NCBI GenBank assembly: GCA_006384855.1
Contig: VCJN01000990.1
Span: forward strand, 62,001-126,000
Reading direction: 5' to 3'
DNA length: 64,000 bases
DNA from: Tetraselmis striata
Lineage: Eukaryota; Chlorophyta; Chlorodendrophyceae; Chlorodendrales; Chlorodendraceae
Positions 21,085 to 64,000 of the stretch are shown here, piece by piece. A program made the position numbers and the translations under genes. The number at the start of each line of letters is the position of its first letter. The first letter of the stretch is position 1. The notes under the pieces are model-generated. The model ran no database searches. It was given only the letters and a program-made list of their open reading frames with translations, and was not told where the DNA came from.

Positions 21085-22961
21085 ATGGCTGCCGTCTCCG
21101 TGAGCAGCGTTTGCACTCGGGCGCAGGTCCAGGCCCGCGCCCCCGGCCCATCTGTGGTACGCCGCGCCGCCGCGGCGCCCGTGCCGGCCTCCTCCCAGGC
21201 TTCGCGCTCGGTGCGCCGCCTGCCTGTGCTCGCCGCCGCCCTGGCGGAGGACACCTCCGTGGCCAGCAGCATGGATGACGACATGGACTCCGCCGGTATG
21301 TACGCGGAGTTCGCTGAGATGCTGGAGCAGTACGATCACAGCTTCAAGCGTGGGGACCTCGTCACCGGCACCGTCTTCCGCGTCGATGCCCGTGGCGCGT
21401 ACGTTGACATTGGTGCCAAGGGCGCGGGCTATGTCCCTTCCAACGAGTGCTCCATGAACACGAACGTCAAGGTGCGTATGTACCTGCCTGCAGGATCATG
21501 GGCAGGACGTAACGCAGGGGTGGTGAAAGGGGCCTGAACAAGATTGGGGCAGGGCGGAAGATGCGGGAAATCTGCGCGAGATGGCGTTTTTTCTTGGGGG
21601 GGGGGGGGGGGGGGGGGTGGGGGGGGGTCAATCGGCAGTTAGTATTCTGACCCCAGCCGAGTTCTACTCTCCTTTTTTCTCACAATAAGTCTGCGCCCTC
21701 TCCTTGCACTGTCAGGCCAACGAGGTGCTGACCGTGGAGACCCAGCGCGAGTTCCTCATTACCAAGGACAACGCCAAGGATGGCGAGATTGGCCTGTCTC
21801 TCAGGCAGCTTGAGGTAATGGCCCTGGTGTGGCTGCCATGTCAGCAGAGGAAATGGTTGGTAACTCGACAATGGTACAGGGGTTTTGACGCTTCGCCCTG
21901 TGGCTGACGAGCTCATTGGGCGGTGCTGCAGTACTCTGTGGCTTGGCAGCGCGTGCGTCAGCTCCAGGAGGAGGATGTGACCGTGATGGGCAAGGTGCTG
22001 AGCCTGAACAGGGGCGGCCTGCTGGTCGATGTGGAGCACATCAAGGGCTTTGTTCCCACCAGCCAGCTCGGCTACGTAAGCCGCTCCCTTCCTCTGTGGC
22101 TTGACACCTCCCTCACCGCAAAGCGCATCCAATGCTCAGCCTTTAGCATCCCAACTGTTTCATAGCTAGTTTGACACGTGCCCTGTGTCACCCTGTGATG
22201 GCAGCGCGTGAACGCCGAGAACTCCATGGGCATGGAGATCCCTCTCAAGTTCCTGGAGGTTGACGAGGAGCGCCAGCGTCTGGTGTTCTCCAACCGCAAG
22301 GCCGTCACTGAGATCCCCACCATGGACTTCAAGGTCGGTGCAGCTTTGAAGCGCTCGCAGCAGTACCATGGCGCGTGGCATGCACACTGACCCCCGCCCA
22401 TGTGCATCTTGGCAGGTTGGCGATGTTGTGGAGGGTATCGTGGAGTCTATCCGGCCTTTCGGCGCCTTCATCAACCTGGGTGAGACCAACGGCCTGCTGC
22501 ACATCAGCCAGATCAGCCACGAGCGCGTCAATGCCGTGGAGAACGTCCTCACCCCCGGCGATCGCCTGAAGGTATGCTGCCCCCCCCTCCGCTATCCTTT
22601 CTTCTTAAAACCCAACCCCACCAGTAGTTTTCGCAGTCCCATGTGCAGAAATGCGGCTGCTTTTTGCCTCATTTGCTGGCTTCATAACCACTTTAGGGCA
22701 TGGCATAACTTATCTAATGTACCTGCTGCTGTGCTGCGCGTGCAGGTGATGATCCTGAGCAAGGACCGCGAAAAGGGCCGCGTCGCTCTGTCCACCCGGA
22801 AGCTGGAGCCTACCCCCGGTGACATGCTCCGCGACCCCGCGCTCGTCTTCGCCAAGGCCGACGAGATGGCCGCCACCTTCCGGGAACGCGTGGCGGAGGC
22901 CGAAGCCGCTGCTCGCGAGGAGGAGGAGCGCATGACCGCGGGCGTTGCTGCGGAGGAGTAA
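21085..22961 (+). CDS. PRPS1: Plastid 30S ribosomal protein S1
   Basis: Six exons, all phase 0: 21085-21471, 21716-21814, 21932-22075, 22205-22333, 22416-22571, 22746-22961, giving 376 residues. The N-terminal ~55 residues are Ala/Ser/Arg-rich with few acids, typical of a chloroplast transit peptide. Three S1 (OB-fold) RNA-binding domains follow: ~88-150 ([20 protein letters not shown]), ~174-235 ([19 protein letters not shown]) and ~254-320 ([33 protein letters not shown]). The third is the most canonical. The tail is acidic and Ala/Glu-rich. Plastid S1 proteins have three rather than six S1 domains, which fits. The role is binding plastid mRNA leaders on the 30S subunit during initiation. 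The start is the first ATG giving a transit peptide. A TGTAA signal lies 234 bp past the stop. Confidence 0.95.
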
Positions 22962-32321: not shown

Positions 32322-33308
32322 ATGTCAGATGGAGAAGAACCCGTCGCTGAGCCGACGTTGCAGTCGCTGAACGCAGATATGAGGGCCCAGTCTTCATTAC
32401 TGCGAGAGCTGGCTACAGCTGTGGCACAATTGACGGCTCGTGATCGCGTTGTTGATGGAGAAGGGGCACATGGCTCCGGCTCAGGGCAGCGCTTCGCGAG
32501 ACAGCCGACAGGCAGCGGGGGAGCCGCAGAGCGCCCCGACTTGCTAGAGCTAGCCCAGAGCGGCCGTGTCGGAGCAAAATCCGTGAGTGCCGAGGATGAT
32601 TACCTCGCGGTGCCAGAGCTATTGCAGAGAGCAGAGTCTGGTTACGAGGCCGTTCGACCGGTCAGCCGAGTGCCTGGACTTTTCCCTCTGAGCACCGACC
32701 TAACGAACGAGTACCTCAAGCAGGATGACCGGCGTCTGCCGGCCCAGGAGGAGTACTTGTGGATGTCGTGTTTCGGGGCCCACATGGCCGCCCTTTTCGT
32801 GGCGCTCGACGAGCTGCTACCTTACGTCCCCGCCACTAACCAGGACTTCACCCCCTACCTCGCGAGAGCCCGGAACCACGCCGAGGCCATCGACAAGGCG
32901 TTTCGGTTTCGTCTGGCCTTCCTACGGAAGCTCAATGAGATCAAGCGTGTGCATGGTGACCAAGGTGTTCTGGATGTGCTGCGGGCCCAGCATTTTCAGC
33001 CTGCTTCGGAGCATCTGGGTTCCGCGATCTTTGGGGACCTCATGCGAGACTACGAGCGTCGTGTCTTCGAGGCGACCGTCGCCAGCAGCGCCAAGGCGAC
33101 CGCTACTTCTCGAGTGGCGGCTGCAGCTGCAGGTCGCGGGCGTGGGCGAGGACGTGGTCGCGGGTGTGGGGCGCCGTTCGTCGGAGCTGCAGGAGCCTTG
33201 CGAGGCCACCTTTCGGTGACCGCCGCAAGACGCACCCTTGCAGCTCAACGGCGGGATGAGCGCCCTGTGTCAGGACCTGACCCCCCCCACCTTACAGACT
33301 TCATTTAG
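32322..33308 (+). CDS. Gag-like protein of YR element
   Basis: ORF of 328 residues from the first ATG (MSDGEEPVAEPTLQSLNADM). It has an acidic N-terminus, a likely short coiled coil (RAQSSLLRELATAVAQLTAR), a central helical region (LWMSCFGAHMAALFVALDEL and onward) and a Gly/Arg-rich RGRGRGRGRG segment near the end, consistent with nucleic-acid binding. There is no CCHC knuckle. The Gag-like role is inferred from position and composition only. It overlaps the YR frame, which lies +1 relative to it, over 33238-33308, and the overlap contains a C8 run (33281-33288). The decayed copy at 16.8-17.5 kb encodes the same protein in pieces. Confidence 0.75.
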   Translation: MSDGEEPVAEPTLQSLNADMRAQSSLLRELATAVAQLTARDRVVDGEGAHGSGSGQRFARQPTGSGGAAERPDLLELAQSGRVGAKSVSAEDDYLAVPELLQRAESGYEAVRPVSRVPGLFPLSTDLTNEYLKQDDRRLPAQEEYLWMSCFGAHMAALFVALDELLPYVPATNQDFTPYLARARNHAEAIDKAFRFRLAFLRKLNEIKRVHGDQGVLDVLRAQHFQPASEHLGSAIFGDLMRDYERRVFEATVASSAKATATSRVAAAAAGRGRGRGRGRGCGAPFVGAAGALRGHLSVTAARRTLAAQRRDERPVSGPDPPHLTDFI

Positions 33309-34824
33309 ACCTTCCTCGGTGCGGCGCTTCTTACAGCTACAGCCGAGTGCGGCTCAACCATCCGCACACCTGCACATGGCGGCTCAACCATCCGCCTTTC
33401 TTACAACCCCATCTCTGCGTTCGTCGGTTGTTACACTACGAGTTACAACCGGTTCGCAACGACCAAGTTTCGCGCGTGTACGTTACGCACGGGACAGGCG
33501 CTATGAGCGCGAAGGGCGCGCGGGGCGGCCCGCCTACCTGAACCTAGCCCCGCAAACCCGTACTGAAGCTACTGCAAACCCGTCCAGCAACTACCGGCCA
33601 ACCGCCGGGAACCTAACCGCTGCTGCCGAGTACTTTGCGAACAGTAGCCGTGCCGGTGGCACTCTGTCAGTAAAACGACGCACTTACGTAATCGACGAGC
33701 CCGCAGCTGTCGCTCCGTGGGCTGCGTCACTGCGATCCCGACTACAGGACGCGTTCGGCTCAGACGAGCTAGGCCAGCGGACGCTCGACTTGCTCTCCAG
33801 CTCCCTCAGCGCTCAGACCCTCAAGAGCTACGCCGGCAGGTTGGCTCAGTTCGCTGAGTTCTGCCACGACTCCGAGAACATCAGCCCGCTAGAGGCGACT
33901 ACTGCTACTGTTGTTCGGTACGTTGCCTGGATCGGGGAGCGAGGGCATATCGCAGCTAAGTCGCTACAGCCCTATCTGTCGGCCATCAACACCTTCTTCG
34001 AGCTGCACAACCTCGTCCCGATCGCCAAGGACAGCCTACACCTCACTTCGGCAAGACGTGGGTTAATGTTACGTCAGCGTCGACTGGACGCTGCCCCTTT
34101 GCGTGTCCCTCTGCCTGCGGATGTAGCTTACCGCTTCGTCTCAAAGGCCGAGCTAATTGTGTCTGCTCCTTACCCAGAGTCCCACCTCGACTACCGAGCC
34201 CTCTTGGCCTCGGTTGTCAACTTCCTGTTCTTTGCCAGGGGCCTTACTGGCGTCTCCTGTCGAGTGCAAGATGTGCATGTCGACACCTACAACATCACCT
34301 TGCAGATCTACCGCGAGAAGGGTCGCGCCGGCCGGCGGGGACCTGACGACCTGCGCGTACTTCTCCTTCCAGTGTCCGAGCACCCTCGAGTGGCACGTCT
34401 CTTGCGCTACTTCATCGACAACGTCCAGTCTGTCCCCCTGGTTACTGTTGGCTTCGCTACCTCCAACTTTGGGGCTGTCAATGTGGCTGAGCAGTCGAAA
34501 CCTTGGACTGCTACTACGATGTCAGACTGGTTGTCTACAGCAGTCAACCTAGTCAACGCTGCCCCCCCTGCTGGCACTTCCTGGACTTCACACAGTCTAC
34601 GCAAGGGCGCAGCTTCTGCAGCAAACGCCATTGGAGCGCCACTGTCCCACATCCGCTACCAGGGCGGTTGGGCCACTAACTCTGATGTCGTTCTGGACTA
34701 CATCGACCCCAACGTTCTTCCTTCTCCTGGCGCGTGGTTCTTCTTTGGACACATCGCCCCCCTCCGCCACTTCCAAATCCAACAGGACTCCGCAGCGGTG
34801 GCCTTCCCAGTGCCTCCTTCATGA
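33256..34824 (+). CDS. Tyrosine recombinase/integrase of YR element
   Basis: The open frame runs from 33238; the first ATG is 33256 (522 residues), or it may be expressed by +1 frameshifting from the Gag-like ORF. An N-terminal SAM-like/core-binding domain (SAQTLKSYAGRLAQFAEFCH) is followed by the catalytic domain. Candidate catalytic residues are Arg I in FFARGLTGVSCRVQD, the hairpin Lys in YREKGRAGRRG, HxxR in SHSLRKGAASAAN, Trp in YQGGWATNSD and nucleophile Tyr in VLDYIDP, ten residues after the Trp, the usual spacing. The frame is intact and likely active. The type is closer to DIRS/Crypton-like YRs than to bacterial XerC/D. It would cut and rejoin element ends via a 3'-phosphotyrosine. 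Confidence 0.88.
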   Translation: MSALCQDLTPPTLQTSFRPSSVRRFLQLQPSAAQPSAHLHMAAQPSAFLTTPSLRSSVVTLRVTTGSQRPSFARVRYARDRRYEREGRAGRPAYLNLAPQTRTEATANPSSNYRPTAGNLTAAAEYFANSSRAGGTLSVKRRTYVIDEPAAVAPWAASLRSRLQDAFGSDELGQRTLDLLSSSLSAQTLKSYAGRLAQFAEFCHDSENISPLEATTATVVRYVAWIGERGHIAAKSLQPYLSAINTFFELHNLVPIAKDSLHLTSARRGLMLRQRRLDAAPLRVPLPADVAYRFVSKAELIVSAPYPESHLDYRALLASVVNFLFFARGLTGVSCRVQDVHVDTYNITLQIYREKGRAGRRGPDDLRVLLLPVSEHPRVARLLRYFIDNVQSVPLVTVGFATSNFGAVNVAEQSKPWTATTMSDWLSTAVNLVNAAPPAGTSWTSHSLRKGAASAANAIGAPLSHIRYQGGWATNSDVVLDYIDPNVLPSPGAWFFFGHIAPLRHFQIQQDSAAVAFPVPPS

Positions 34825-49020: not shown

Positions 49021-51478
49021 ATGTCGCGCAACGATGTGCGCTTCTACGAGCAGAAGTTCCCGGAGGTGGACGACGTGGTGATGGTGCAGGTGAAGAGCAT
49101 TGCGGAGATGGGCGCGTACGTCAGCCTGCTGGAGTACAACGGCATCGAGGGCATGATCTTGCTGTCCGAGCTCAGTCGGCGCCGCATTCGCTCCATCACG
49201 AAGCTCATCAAGGTGCGGCAGAGAGGAGGGAGGGAGGGTGGCAGCGCTGGTGCCGAGCGGGACTCTGAAGGGGGGGGGGGGGGGGGCGCTGAATAAGGCA
49301 GCACCGGCGCGGCGGGGCGATCTGGCGGGCGAGGACATACCGGAGCCCGTCGAGGGGGGGGACATACCGGAGCCCGCGCCTACAACGCGAGAAACGGCGG
49401 GGGCTCGGGGTGGCACCTGGCGCTGGCGCGGAGGCAGGAGGGTGTGGGGGAGGGGGGGGGGGGGGGGGGGGGGGATCCAGGAGGGAGGGGGGTGTCGCAC
49501 TCTGTCTGCACCCTGTCTGCACCCTGTCTGCTGCCGCAGCTCCAGCCAGTTCCCGCGCCTGCTCCCCGCCACTGCTTTCCTCCGCTGTATCCACTTCGTC
49601 CCTACCTCCACAATGACTACCTGCAGCCCCGCCCCGCCTCCCCGCAAGGCCATGGCACCTCCCCCCCGCCCCCCCCCCCCCCCCCCCCCCCGCGTTCTCT
49701 CCCGTTTTCGCCCCCCCTCCCTCTGTTTGCCTCATTTTACCCCTCAAATCCTCCTGCAGCGGCGCGATGCCCCCCACACCGCAGCACCATGCCTCCCACA
49801 CCACTACTTATACCCACTCTCAGCCCTCACTTCACACCCTGCCGCCATCTATATGCATTCATTCCTGAGCATATTGCAGAGCGTCGTCTGCCGGGCTGCC
49901 TTACGTGACTAGCCAACCTCCCCCCCCCCCCCCCCCCCCCTTCACACCCCTACCTACCCGTCTGTGCACATACACAAACAACAAACCCCTCTGCCTCTGC
50001 GCAACCGGCGCACGAATCTCCCCTCTCTGTCCTCACTCCTCGCAACTAGCCCGGCCTTCTGCGGACGCAATATGTGCGCCCCTCTCGCCCGGAGAATGGG
50101 GGGAGGAGGTGTGTGTGTGTGTGTGTGTGTTTGGGGGGGGGGGGGGGGGGGGTTTGTCTGTGTCTCTGTGTGTGTTTGGTTGGCCGGGGGGGGGGGGGGG
50201 GGGTGGACTGCTGTTCCGGGCCGCAATGGGCAGCAGCGTTTGAGTTGCTTTGGGAAGGTGTGTGCGCGCGCGGATGAGGTGTGCAGCGCTGTGGGAATGA
50301 CAAGGCTCCCCCCCTCGGCAGCCCACGCGCGCTGTGTCGGGGCTGCAGTCTGAGACACTGGGCAGCGTGGTCCACCTTGGGCTACGGCACCCAGATGCTC
50401 CTCCGCCTATTCCGGCGCAGTGACAGGTGCAAATGTGTGTATGTAATTGCGCACACCCCTGTGCGTGTGTGATGGTGTGCTTGGGTGTGCATATCACAGA
50501 CGCGTGTGCCCGCCCACGCGGGCTTTCAGGAGAGATGTCTCTGTCGATAGAAGAAAAGACAGGGAGGCGGGGGCTTTAGACATTGGCAGCGAGGGTGGGC
50601 TGATGCGGTGGTGTTCTGTCTGTGTCACGCATGCCTTGCGCGGCTGACCGGCTGCCGTGCGTGCGTGCTCGCCCCGCCAGGTGGGGCGCCAGGAGCCGGT
50701 GATGGTGCTGCGCGTGGACAAGGAGAAGGGGTACATCGACCTGTCCAAGCGGCGCGTGAGCCCGGAGGACCTGAAGGCCTGCGACGAGAAGTTCAACAAG
50801 AGCAAGATGGTGCACTCCATCGTGCGCCACACGGCGGAGACGACGGGCACCAACCTGGAGGAGCTGCAGGAGAAGGTCACCTGGCCGCTGTACAAGCAGT
50901 ACGGCCACGCGTTTGAGGCGTTCAAGCAGGTGTGCGCGGACCCGGGCGCCGTGTTCGGCAGCCTCACCAACGCGGACGGCAGCGCCATCGACGTGCTGAC
51001 GCCGGAGGTGGTGGACTCGCTGGTGAAGAACATCCGGCGCCGCATGACGCCGCAGCCGCTCAAGATCCGCGCCGACGTGGAGATGACGTGCTTCAACTAC
51101 GACGGCGTGCTGCACATCCAGAAGGCCATGCGCGACGCGGAGGCGGTCGGCAGCGAGGAGTGCCCCGTGAAGATGAAGCTCGTGGCGCCGCCGCTGTACG
51201 TGCTGACCACGCAGACGCTGGACAAGGACGCGGGCGTGGCGGTGCTGGTGAAGGCGTGCGAGACCTGCCAGGCCAGCATCGAGGGCGCCAAGGGGCGGCT
51301 GATCATCAAGGAGGCCGCGCGCGCGGTGAGCGACCGCGACGACCGCCTGCTCACGGAGCAGCTCGAGCAGCTGGAGGCCGCCAACCGCGAGGTCGGCGGC
51401 GACGACGACAGCGACGCGGAGGAGGACGAGGGCATGGGCAGCGCCGGGGTGGAGGGCGCCGGCCTCACCGACGTGTAG
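49021..51478 (+). CDS. EIF2A: Translation initiation factor eIF2 subunit alpha
   Basis: Two exons, 49021-49212 and 50681-51478, joined in phase 0 to 329 residues. The N-terminal S1 domain is highly conserved ([40 protein letters not shown]) and keeps the regulatory serine in [12 protein letters not shown] (Ser52 counting Met, i.e. classical Ser51), so control by GCN2-type kinases is expected. A helical domain ([20 protein letters not shown]) and the C-terminal alpha/beta domain ([38 protein letters not shown]) follow, then an acidic tail ([13 protein letters not shown]). It is the alpha subunit of the GTP-Met-tRNAi ternary complex. The intron (1468 bp) falls inside the S1 domain and is packed with poly-G, poly-C and TG runs. 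TGTAA lies 172 bp past the stop. Confidence 0.97.
49213..50680 (+). other. eIF2-alpha intron 1, homopolymer-rich
   Basis: This intron holds at least six long homopolymer runs: G near 49269 and 49457, C near 49667 and 49919, G near 50133 and 50186. It also holds a (TG)n stretch (50109-50131) and a 12-bp tandem CTGTCTGCACCC (49501-49530). There is no internal exon with protein-like sequence; open frames arise from the repeats. Confidence 0.8.
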
Positions 51479-58909: not shown

Positions 58910-59993
58910 GGCGGCGGGCGCTGATTGGGAGGGTACCGGGCTCCGTTACCCCGTGAGGAGGGGGGGGGGGGGGGGGGGATGTGGCAAGCCGCGGCGTGGC
59001 AATGCAGACGCTGCGCTTGCCGGTGGTGATATGCGTGGCCATACATATTATCAGTGTCAGGAACAGCATGGCGGCATCACAGCGTGATGCCGGGCGCAGC
59101 ATTCTTGCCTGGGCGGTGTCGTCCCCGTTAGCTGACGCGCTGATATCGCGCTGGTTGACAGCGCAGCGATGATTCGTGCGGAAAACAAAATAAAAAAAGC
59201 TTGCGTGCGTTTCAATATGATGATTAATATAGGTAATCCTTACGACCCGTTTTAGGGTTTGTGGCTACGATATGGAGATACAAATATGTAAGGATGACTC
59301 CGCCGGTCGCGCTACTAGCCATTACTCCTGCTGAGCTAGTGCTTTTATACTAATGTGAGCTAAATAATATTGCTAAATCTTTACATATCATTTTTTAATT
59401 TCGCGGACATATCTCTTTATTCTGCGTCCAATTAGGGGGCCGGATTCACGGATATTGCCGGCTCCGCTGGGCGCGCCGGCGGCCCGACGCCGCGCGGGCG
59501 GCCGTCGCTTGCGCGCAGTCGTTGAGGCGTCCTTGACGGCCATCCGTCGTCAGCATCAAACACTGACCGCCACGCCGCCGCTACTTAGCGGGATTTAGAC
59601 CAACCGTGGCCTGAGTCATCGCGATCAAGGCTGCTACCGCTTGGTAGCCGTGGCCGGGCCGGAGCCCTACCGACACGCTTTGCCCAGGGCGCGGCTCACA
59701 GTAGCCGTTGCTGACGCCGGGGGGCGGAAAAGCAAATAGGCCCGCGGCCCCGGGCGGTCTCTTGCCTCAGCAGCGTCGCGGACTCGCACGCCGGTCTGCG
59801 GCCACTTGGGCCCTCCGCGTGGTCGTCTGAGCAGGCCGCTGCGCCATATAAACTTCGGCAAGCCTGACGGGGGCCGCGGCCCCCCCCCTCCCCCCCCCCC
59901 CACTTTCTTCCCCTTCCCTCGGTGCCCGACCGCCAGCTTTCCCATTACATAATCTGACGAACGGCGGGAAAAAAGTGACCCGATCAATCTGCG
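58910..59993. other. Divergent intergenic region between TGD4 and the TIR-WD40 gene
   Basis: Head-to-head gene starts 1.08 kb apart. Contains a G18 run (58961-58978), an AT-rich core (59180-59440) and a GC-rich part before the TIR gene. No promoter motif can be named with confidence. Confidence 0.4.
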
Positions 59994-62900
59994 ATGGGCG
60001 CGCACAAAGTCCACGTGATGCCCGATGAAGCCGGGGGTGACGACATTCCAGAGAGTACGGAAGGCGAGACCGGGAGCCAATCGAGCAAGCTGCAGACGGA
60101 GCTTCTGGCGTCAGCGCGGCCGAGCCACTGGACGCGGTGGCCCGAGTTGAGGGAGGGTGAGCGGGCGCAGCGCGTGCGTAACCGCGCCGCCGGCCGGCTG
60201 GTCGCCGACGAGCTGTACGTGTCGCACTGCTGGACCGACGCTGCCACCGGCGATGACGTCAAGCGCCGAGCTATCTGCGAACTAAGCCGCGGTCGGACGG
60301 TGAGTACCGGGCAAGCGCCTCCCACGCTCACCATCCCTGCGCGCATCGAAAGAAGTCCAACTCAGATAGTGACATGTACAGGTACCGCCCAGGTGCCCGT
60401 ACTTTTCACATAGAATTCCATATACTATAAATAAAATAGCCAGCAGATAATGAGCAGAATAATAAGTCGTTGAATATCGGGGGCAGGAAACAGAGGCCTG
60501 GTTTCGCTGCTTGTGCGTCGTTGGGCGTAGTCGCTTCGGCGCAGTGAACGCCTCGTGTCGGCAACATATGCCGTGGCCAGGCACGTAGTGAATGCCCCCC
60601 GGCTGACATTTAGCCGCGCCGGTGTCTCGTCGCAGACCGGCGGCCGAGGCTACACGTACTTCGCCGACTTCCTGGATTGCGGCGCCGAGGGGCGCCCGAG
60701 CCCGTGGGGCGCCAGCAATGCCGCCGCCCTTACGGGCGCCTCCAAGTTTGTCGCCTTTGTGAGCGCGGAGTATCTCACCACCTTCTCGTGCCTGCAGGTT
60801 CGCCCTCACTGGCCGGTGCTCTCCCTCTCTCTCCCTCTCTCTCCCTCTGTATATATATATATATTTGTTTATATAGGTATATTTATATTTATCAGCGTCA
60901 GCATGTGTAAAACGCGCGCACACATACACGCACACGCACATACATACAAAGCAATGCACTACGACCTGAGGGCTTTCTCTGCACCATTGACCCCGAATGT
61001 CGTTACAGCATGGTGTGATGCTAGCGCATGGACTGCCATGAAATAATGCCAACCACACCCATAGCTCCCCCCAACAATAAAGCACCTCCACAGACTCTCT
61101 CTCTCGTCTGATATTCTTTCCTCCTTCATCCCACCATTCCTCCATCGATGATACCGTATGATTCCTCCATAGATGATACTGTATGATGAATGATTTCTGG
61201 CCGCATGTTGACTATGGCGGGTAGGAGGTGGCGCACGCACTCGCGGCCGGGAAAGCGATCGTTCCTGTGGTGCTGGACGCAGCCGCCTGGGACACGCTGC
61301 ACGCGGGGAGGCCCGCCGCGGAGGCCGCCTGGGCGAGGGGCCCGTCCCTCGCGCAGTTTGCCGGCTCGCCGCTGCTGGGGGGCTCCGCCGGCGGCGATGG
61401 CGATAGCGATGGGGGGGAGGAGGGGGGCTGGGAGCGCGATCGCGGCGCCTACGAGCACGCGGACGAGGCGCTGGGCGTCCCGGCGGTGCTGCGGCTGTAT
61501 GCGGCGCTGGCGGCGGCGGCGCCCGTGGCGGCGCGCCCGGTGGACGTCGCCGGCCGCGGTGAGGAAGCGGTGCTGCGGACCGTCTTTTCTGCGGTGGAAG
61601 CCGGCATGGCCAACGAGGTGCGCCCCCAGCGCCGCGGTCCTCCGACCCCCAGCGCATCTGACTGCCCTGCTTGAGGAGAGGGTTCTGTCAGAATGCAACG
61701 CGAACATATCATGCAATCTCCGAGTCCGCCACTTCGGGACCCACTGAAACGGCACTGTTTGCATGATGCCCGCGCTTTATTACAGTGAAGGTTTGCCATG
61801 CTGCCCCCGCTGCAGACGCTCCTGGCCACCTCGGCGTGCGCCGCACGCAGCTGGGCCGCAGCAGGGCGGGCAAAGTGGGCCCTGCTGAGCTCAGACGAGG
61901 CGGGGGCGTGGCGGCTGCTGCTCGCGGCCCTGGACGGCTCCGCGGGCGGCGCGGCATCGCCCGCCACGGGCAAGCCGTCGCCGCTGGCGCGCGAGCACGT
62001 CGCCGCCAGCTCCGCCCGCGCCCGCCGGCAGCGCCTGCTGACCACTGCCGCGCTGGCGGCCGCCCTGGGGGCAATGCTGCTTGCGCTGCTGCTGGCGCCA
62101 ACTGCGGTGGCGCTGCGCTCGCGGCGGTCCGCTGCGGTAGCGGAATCCGCTGCCGCGTCGGAGCTGTCGGCGGTGCAGCGTGCCTACGCCATTGAGCGCG
62201 AGCGCGCGGATGCGCTGGCGGAGGCCGCTGAGCGGACGGAGAGACTCGCCGCGGCAGCCGAGGCGGCGGCTGCCGCCGCGGAGGCAGAGGCGACAGCCCG
62301 CCGGCGTGAAGCGGTGCTGGGCTTGCTGTACAGCGCCTCGCCGGCGTCCGGCGCGCAGTTACGCGGGCTCTTGGCGGCGGCGGACCTGGCGGCAGGCAGC
62401 GGCCCCGTAGCAGAGGGGCGCCTGCGTGCGGCGCTGCCGGCGGCGCTTGACGCGCTGGCGGGCAACCTGGCCGCGGGCAACTGGGCACGGGAGGCGGCGG
62501 CGGAGCTTGCACCGCCATCTGTCCGCATCAACGGCCTTGCGTTCCGATCGGATGCGCGCCTGCTGGCCGCCGCCTGTGACGACGCTGCGGTACGTTGCTC
62601 CCCCGCCTAGCATCTCCCCTCTCGTCCACCCGGGTTCTCTTAATCACTTCACCAGGTTATCGCCCTCTTGCCGGCAGCGCACTTTACAGCATCACGGCTC
62701 ATTGTATGTAGCTCGTGTGGATGTTCCATGCGCAGGTTGACATGAATGGCACCAAGCTGATCAGATGCACTGAATGATGCCATTTCGCACACAGCTGCTA
62801 TTACGTATACACGTATTAAATCATGCAGCGGTTGTTTGTTTCGCTGACAGTGTTTCTTTGCTACAGCTTACAGTGTGGCAAAAACCTCTGGCGATGGTGA

Positions 62901-64000
62901 GCACGGCATGATAAACAACCGAGCGCATGCCCATGATAAGCAGCGTAGTGTACAGATTGCTGAGAATTGCCTATGCAGCTATTCTGCAGCGGTGTATTGC
63001 AGTTTGCATGATATATGGATGTCGTCAAGTACTGGTATATCACGCATTATTTGTCTACGAAGGAATCTTTTTGGCGATGGTGCATATTGGCTCAAATTGT
63101 ATAATGCTCCACGGAATGTTGTCAGCAATGTGCCGAGAATCCCGTAATAATCAACATTGCAATATTGCGATGTTGATGATGCAAGTATCACGGCGCCCAT
63201 AGAACGAAGGGCTAGGTAAGCAACATGTATATATATACATATATGTGTAGACATCGACAAATATGTATAAATCTATATCTATTCCTAAACATATATACAT
63301 CAAAGCCTCGTCGCATTGGTATGAATAAGCTGATACCAAGGCATCGCCGCAGCGATATGCTGTACGAGCCGACATGATGCTAATTATTTGTGTTATGATT
63401 TTGCCGCGTGGCAGGTGCGGCTGTGGCAGCGGGCGGCGGGCGAGGGCGGCTCGTCCGCTACATGGGAGCCGCTGCCCGGCGCGCCAGCGCTATCGATGGC
63501 CGCCGGGAGCGGCGCCGTCACGGCCGTGGCCCTGTCGAATGACGGAAGCTTGCTGGCGGCTGCCTCACGCTCTGGCCCCACATATATATACGACGTCGGA
63601 GTGCCGGGATCAGGCTCGCCTGCGCCCACGCTTTGGGATAGCCAGCCGGCACCAACGGGCCCGGCGCAGTGGGTGACTTGCCTGGCCTTCTCGCCCGACG
63701 ACACCACCCTCGCGCTCGGTGGCTCGGGCGGCGATGTGACTCTGCTGCCGATGGGCGCCGGCAACAGCTCGACGACGGGCGCGCCCCGCCTGGATGGGCA
63801 CCCTGGCGGGGTGTCCGCCCTGGCTTGGTCCCCGGCCACCGGCAGCTTCCGCCGCCTCGCTGTCAGCTCGGCCTCGGCAGCAGCCGTCCGTGTGTGGTTG
63901 TTCGCCGGCGGCCTGGAACCCTCGTCTACCGAGCTCGACTTTTCCGAGGGCGATGTCGGCCTCTCCTTGGACGGAGAGAATGCTGCCGGCGTCCTGGTGA
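59994..64000 (+). CDS. TIR-transmembrane-coiled-coil-WD40 protein, 3' partial
   Basis: Exons, all phase 0: 59994-60299, 60636-60797, 61225-61617, 61816-62589, 63415 to the window end. About 740 residues are visible. Residues 73-180 form a TIR domain: strand A DELYVSHCWTD, then TYFADFLDCG, TGASKFVAFVSAEYLTTF, then CLQEVAHALAAGKAIVPVVL. The Glu at 157 aligns with the catalytic Glu of NADase TIRs (SARM1 has the same E-x5-L-x-x-GK pattern). A transmembrane helix lies at ~361-387 (LAAALGAMLLALLLAPTAVA), then an Ala/Glu/Arg coiled coil (~393-450), then WD40 blades from ~522 (INGLAFRSDARLLAAACDDA, VTAVALSNDGSLLAAAS, VTCLAFSPDDTTLALGG, VSALAWSPATG). TIR plus TM plus WD40 is a layout known from cyanobacteria and other bacteria; in eukaryotes it is unusual. 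The gene is intron-containing, hence resident. The likely role is signal sensing with NAD+ cleavage; the ligand is unknown. Confidence 0.85.

Follow-up and report, generated by a model that had tools for sequence, protein, structure and literature searches.

A spliced TIR-WD40 gene of the green alga Tetraselmis striata belongs to a large family of membrane proteins with homologues in the Chloroflexota

The gene described here lies at the end of a 64,000-nucleotide stretch of the Tetraselmis striata genome (the window, equivalent to positions 62001-126000 of contig C784); the species is placed in the Chlorodendrophyceae, Chlorophyta. It begins at window position 59994 and encodes, in order, a TIR domain, a helical linker, a membrane helix, a presumed coiled coil and WD40 repeats. 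The gene is a member of a large Tetraselmis family of membrane TIR-WD40 proteins, and profile comparisons show that the family is homologous over the TIR domain, linker and membrane helix to TIR-linker-transmembrane-WD40 proteins of the Chloroflexota. On balance, the protein appears to be receptor-like, with a single pass through the membrane and probably with bacterial ancestry, and it would be clustered by engagement of its WD40 part and signal through its TIR domain. No paper on an algal TIR-membrane-WD40 protein was found in searches of the open PMC literature, and green-algal TIR proteins in general are little described.

Results

Gene model and domain layout

An earlier note on this DNA had proposed a spliced eukaryotic gene at 59994, an observation that is confirmed: five exons are separated by four introns, all GT-AG and all of phase 0, and GC content is 74% in the coding sequence (83% at third codon positions, GC3) compared with 45-61% in the introns. 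An in-frame TGA is present upstream of the start codon, at 59976. The gene crosses the window edge, with exon 5 remaining open until a TGA whose last base is contig position 127544 (65544 in window numbering), giving a span of 121994-127544 on the + strand of the contig and a protein of 1254 amino acids (aa). No second copy of this gene was found in a search of the T. striata assembly.

The WD40 C-terminus is clear in the full protein (Pfam, 5.6e-32) and begins at about residue 525. Pfam TIR_2, which the earlier note had suggested as a check, did not reach its cut-off of 28 bits (scores of 23.2, 26.8 and 22.1), although the N-terminal TIR domain itself holds: residues 73-181 scored 92.4 bits with a profile built, without this gene, on eight eukaryotic TIRs of the family, whereas the best of 1000 shuffled sequences scored 3.1 bits. 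A profile of six bacterial TIRs scored 15.3 bits on the same domain, and the TIR motifs S, D, W, C and E are retained. Hydropathy scans agree with the proposed single membrane helix, with residues 361-381 outstanding (2.27) and a weaker stretch at 241-259 (1.64). The linker, residues 260-360, scored 26.7 bits against a profile of the other algal family linkers. Three pieces of the linker shared by algae and bacteria had no Pfam match above cut-off. In a structural model of a paralogue, a single long helix is predicted (residues 346-437) at the place of the presumed coiled coil, and the TIR domain is predicted to adopt the alternating strand-helix fold.

Other searches with this gene were negative. 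PADLOC gave no match for residues 1-508, nor for one paralogue piece, and NCBIfam gave none for the gene. A homologue search with residues 60-500, in which scoring was limited to the 8000 candidates with most words in common, was also empty, we think because alanine-rich stretches swamped the candidates. The TIR region alone had no match at E 1, and a PDB search with the TIR piece alone gave two weak matches, both centrins, and no TIR.

A large family in Tetraselmis

Family matches are found on 36 contigs of the T. striata assembly. A query from T. chuii gave 69 matches in T. striata at 0.001, one of them exon 2 of this gene, and the TIR-linker piece of a paralogue on contig C1973, whose matched part is identical (100%) to protein jgi/Tetstr1, gave 70 exon matches (E <= 0.01) on 35 contigs, this gene not among them. 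Five pairs among 19 compared loci share 96-99% identity over 2.2-3.7 kb and represent haplotypes or recently duplicated copies, so that there are fewer distinct genes than contigs. In one paralogue a single open exon runs from the end of the TIR through linker and membrane helix into the start of the WD40 part, and another TIR-linker-transmembrane member, L001 on contig C613, is a single open frame without introns. Relatives outside T. striata comprise T. chuii P0002 (1200 aa), T. astigmatica P0005 (an MMETSP entry with a TIR that loses frame near the glutamate and is not included in TIR counts), the environmental, eukaryote-like P0007 and environmental fragments.

Some members are degenerate, carrying stops or having lost a splice acceptor (L045-L047 and L034, on contigs C668, C155 and C1363), and the family seems to turn over. 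Four near-identical linker pairs, each with 2-5 nucleotide differences, all had less non-synonymous than synonymous divergence (dN < dS); among five TIR pairs, dN was 0 in two and below dS in one, L046/L047 being not comparable. Changes were too few in both sets to carry weight. The pair L027/L028, with dN above dS (0.14 versus 0.11), was set aside as a splice-alignment artefact of L027. Among viral contigs, 30 stretches fitted a pattern and none was confirmed as a relative.

Another TIR family, distinct from this one, is also present in the T. striata genome; its TIR is encoded in one open frame, and its first strand is followed by an HDW motif (loci L002-L008 and L013-L015, on contigs C2592, C40, C1400, C765, C828, C645, C2490, C200 and C1704). 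Furthermore, there are 12 NACHT matches (contigs C116, C2068, C2552, C2711 and others), eight of them in open frames of 1374-1489 aa. EDS1 and STALD domains gave no match, although the control genomes were silent too, so this says nothing on their absence.

Homology to bacterial proteins

The search that found the Tetraselmis relatives also returned P0010, a 744-aa protein with TIR, linker, membrane helix and WD40 in the same order. A scan of species genomes with P0010 gave five loci, titled Anaerolineae, Anaerolineaceae or Anaerolineales (Chloroflexota). L036 and L037 match P0010 over the whole length; in L038 and L039 the match begins at the TIR and extends through the membrane helix, and in L040 it covers just TIR and linker. 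Profile-profile comparison of 14 eukaryotic with five bacterial rows gave 99.4% (3e-21) over TIR, linker and helix. The TIR alone gave 97.6% (10 eukaryotic versus five bacterial rows, four partial or damaged eukaryotic TIRs having been dropped) and the linker alone 97.3%, and for neither did any of 100 shuffles come near the real score. The algal profile was positive in all three home genomes and in 17 of 151 genomes of a phylum sample; there TIR and linker, the only parts scored, were often adjacent in one frame. The bacterial look that the earlier note had seen in the layout is thus borne out by Chloroflexota proteins that align over TIR, linker and membrane helix. In P0010, L036 and L037 the order of parts is the same, the glutamate is kept and each genome has several related frames, but the bacterial proteins lack introns in the frames read and lack the long insert between TIR strands D and E. 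P0010 itself scored 27.3 bits with the NCBIfam Thoeris ThcB4 model (cut-off 220). For a bacterial TIR-linker piece, single-sequence modelling reached a mean pLDDT of 47, and the model was set aside.

In a tree of 26 rows, ten eukaryotic rows are split from the bacterial rows by a 100/100 branch and this gene falls among the Tetraselmis rows; four partial eukaryotic rows and four of 19 bacterial loci (two repeats of used rows, plus L066 and L073) were left out. The intronless C613 gene is the deepest eukaryotic branch as drawn from the midpoint, which would fit intron gain after transfer. The tree has no outgroup and its bacteria are Chloroflexota only, so it does not bear on the direction or donor of a transfer; bacterial acquisition of the family is plausible from these comparisons.

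Glu157

As the earlier note had it, exon 3 opens with the codon of Glu157. Fifteen TIRs (nine eukaryotic, six bacterial) share eight invariant columns, and the glutamate is one of them; it is kept in 31 of 34 T. striata family TIRs, a count taken from 32 contigs, with C801, C757, C2037 and C2168 not read for TIR and near-identical pairs counted twice. Those without it are C668 and C155, a pair with an in-frame TAG just before the glutamate, and C1363, which has lost a splice acceptor and has stops in the linker. A phase-0 intron lies directly before the glutamate codon in 27 of the 31; these boundaries come from an alignment guided by a family reference and a few may be off, whereas that of this gene follows from its sequence.

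A profile of the family and bacterial TIRs matched 41 PDB sequences at E <= 0.01, all TIR or SEFIR by name. The best was Cat1, a CRISPR-associated TIR (2.8e-10), and through the family profile the Glu157 site is aligned with the Cat1 glutamate. The best fold matches of the paralogue model were plant TIRs, and the fold matches include an NAD-bound RUN1 structure with E100 mutated; the 50 Foldseek entries listed for the paralogue model were largely WD40 proteins and included no TIR.

Contig setting

An exon of eIF2-alpha lies 8.5 kb upstream of the gene, which fits a host chromosome origin of the contig. Coordinates are collected in Table 1.

Table 1. Features of the TIR-WD40 gene and its surroundings (window numbering)
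Feature	Position	Strand	Content
Exon 1	59994-60299	+	Start codon, N-terminal region, first TIR strand and helix; residues 1-102; GT donor, phase 0
TIR start within exon 1	60210 (residue 73)	+	Family-profile range residues 73-181
Exon 2	60636-60797	+	Mid TIR, residues 103-156, last residues SCLQ; match to T. chuii relative 1.4e-6, 39% identity
Exon 3	61225-61617	+	TIR end, then insert, then linker start; residues 157-287; linker from residue 260
Glu157 codon	61225-61227	+	First codon of exon 3; aligned with catalytic glutamate of TIR NADases
Exon 4	61816-62589	+	Linker, membrane helix, presumed coiled coil, WD40 start; residues 288-545
Membrane helix	62035-62097	+	Residues 361-381; hydropathy scans
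Exon 5	63415-64000 in window, on to 65544	+	WD40 repeats
eIF2-alpha exon	50648-51475	+	PF07541, 9.4e-32
Open frame	33220-34821	+	Tyrosine-recombinase N-terminal domain (Phage_int_SAM_1, 6.6e-8); probably a mobile element
S1 RNA-binding domain	22350-22958	+	PF00575, 3.7e-13

Discussion

The data are best accommodated by a bacterial gene ancestor that probably entered the algal lineage, gained introns and multiplied there. The flank of the membrane helix on the TIR side is the more positive in six of seven eukaryotic and three of three bacterial rows, which suggests that the TIR domain is cytosolic and the WD40 part lies across the membrane. Clustering of the protein would follow when its WD40 part binds a ligand or partner, a mechanism proposed from the layout and by analogy with other TIR systems. 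The clustered TIR domain would then signal, and it is somewhat more probable than not that it would do so as an enzyme, with Glu157 cleaving NAD+ or a related nucleotide. The output may be a stress or anti-invader response; an immune role is our guess from the family expansion, the degenerate copies and the kinship with bacterial proteins.

Several observations weigh against this explanation. Sequon counts, with 28 observed and 24.6 expected, lend no support to an outside WD40 part. The linker of this gene scored -1.6 bits with the bacterial linker profile, so its link to bacteria runs through the paralogues whose linkers it resembles. The copy studied sits on a long branch (1.61) with odd composition, and its gene model, predicted from sequence, is without transcript support. 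As for the enzyme, the earlier note had placed Glu157 where SARM1-type TIR NADases have their catalytic glutamate. The alignment with Cat1 and the conservation of the residue uphold that position, but the tryptophan four residues before the glutamate, which binds ligand in SARM1-type NADases according to a survey (PMC7075850), is absent in 31 of 31 TIRs, the residue there being N in 28, S in two (this gene included) and K in one. The same survey notes that the glutamate is common, too, among TIRs without known enzymatic activity, some Toll-like receptors for example (PMC7075850), and the residue occurs in more than 70% of TIR domains. Together with the missing tryptophan, this frequency makes the case for an NADase weaker than the title of the earlier note implied.

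In a less likely alternative, the TIR is a non-enzymatic assembly domain that clusters and recruits TIR or other signalling partners in the manner of MyD88 and Toll-like receptors, with Glu157 serving folding or contacts. The family profile is matched better by TIRs of MyD88 and Toll-like receptors (7.5e-6 and weaker) than by SARM1, the SARM1 tryptophan is lacking, the glutamate is not necessarily tied to TIR activity (PMC7075850), and the second TIR family of the genome could supply a partner. Against it, the best PDB match is Cat1, which degrades NAD+, the best fold matches are plant TIRs known as NADases, and the glutamate belongs to the eight columns invariant in algal and bacterial TIRs alike. 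A bolder version of the receptor explanation, doubtful as a whole, is that Tetraselmis has an expanded set of receptors, each with an outside WD40 sensor and an enzymatically active TIR in the cytosol, which were taken over entire from Chloroflexota-like bacteria, gained introns and now make up the repertoire of a unicellular alga, for example an antiviral one.

It is unlikely that this copy is a diverged or decaying family member with a present function, if any, unlike that of its relatives. The long branch, the odd composition, the lack of a second copy, the degenerate copies elsewhere in the family and the model without transcript support would suit such decay; the five intact exons without a stop, the canonical splice sites, the strong GC3 signal and the kept TIR motifs argue otherwise. 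An artefact, whether contamination or TIR and WD40 exons of separate genes, is very improbable, since introns do separate these exons in a model drawn from sequence but are spliceosomal, the eIF2-alpha exon shares the contig, one paralogue joins TIR end to WD40 start in a single exon, and relatives, one an MMETSP entry, have the layout in one protein.

A receptor-like TIR-membrane-WD40 protein would differ from each of the better known TIR systems. Cat1 shares the aligned glutamate, but has the tryptophan that the algal family lacks, another layout and a cyclic-nucleotide trigger. The TIRs of plant RUN1, RPV1 and RPP1 sit in NB-ARC-LRR proteins, whereas the algal protein has its linker, membrane helix and WD40 part, and no NB-ARC among the best 25 of its 28 Pfam matches. 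Animal Toll-like receptors likewise have a membrane helix between TIR and repeats and TIRs that match the family profile, but their parts run in reverse order, with repeats before the TIR, and the repeats are leucine-rich rather than WD40. The TIR-NBARC-WD40 proteins of a red alga, mentioned in PMC9806590, are another kind of layout.

One survey counts 16 chlorophytan TIR domains (PMC7075850), and a plant study set aside its algal TIRs for their long branches (PMC9806590). Here, one alga holds a TIR-WD40 family on 36 contigs whose layout is also bacterial, with a TIR-to-membrane linker common to bacteria and algae. A virus of T. striata has been published (PMC4517135), so that an antiviral test is possible. 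If active, the family would be an instance, open to testing, in which a unicellular eukaryote has kept and multiplied an entire bacterial receptor-effector layout.
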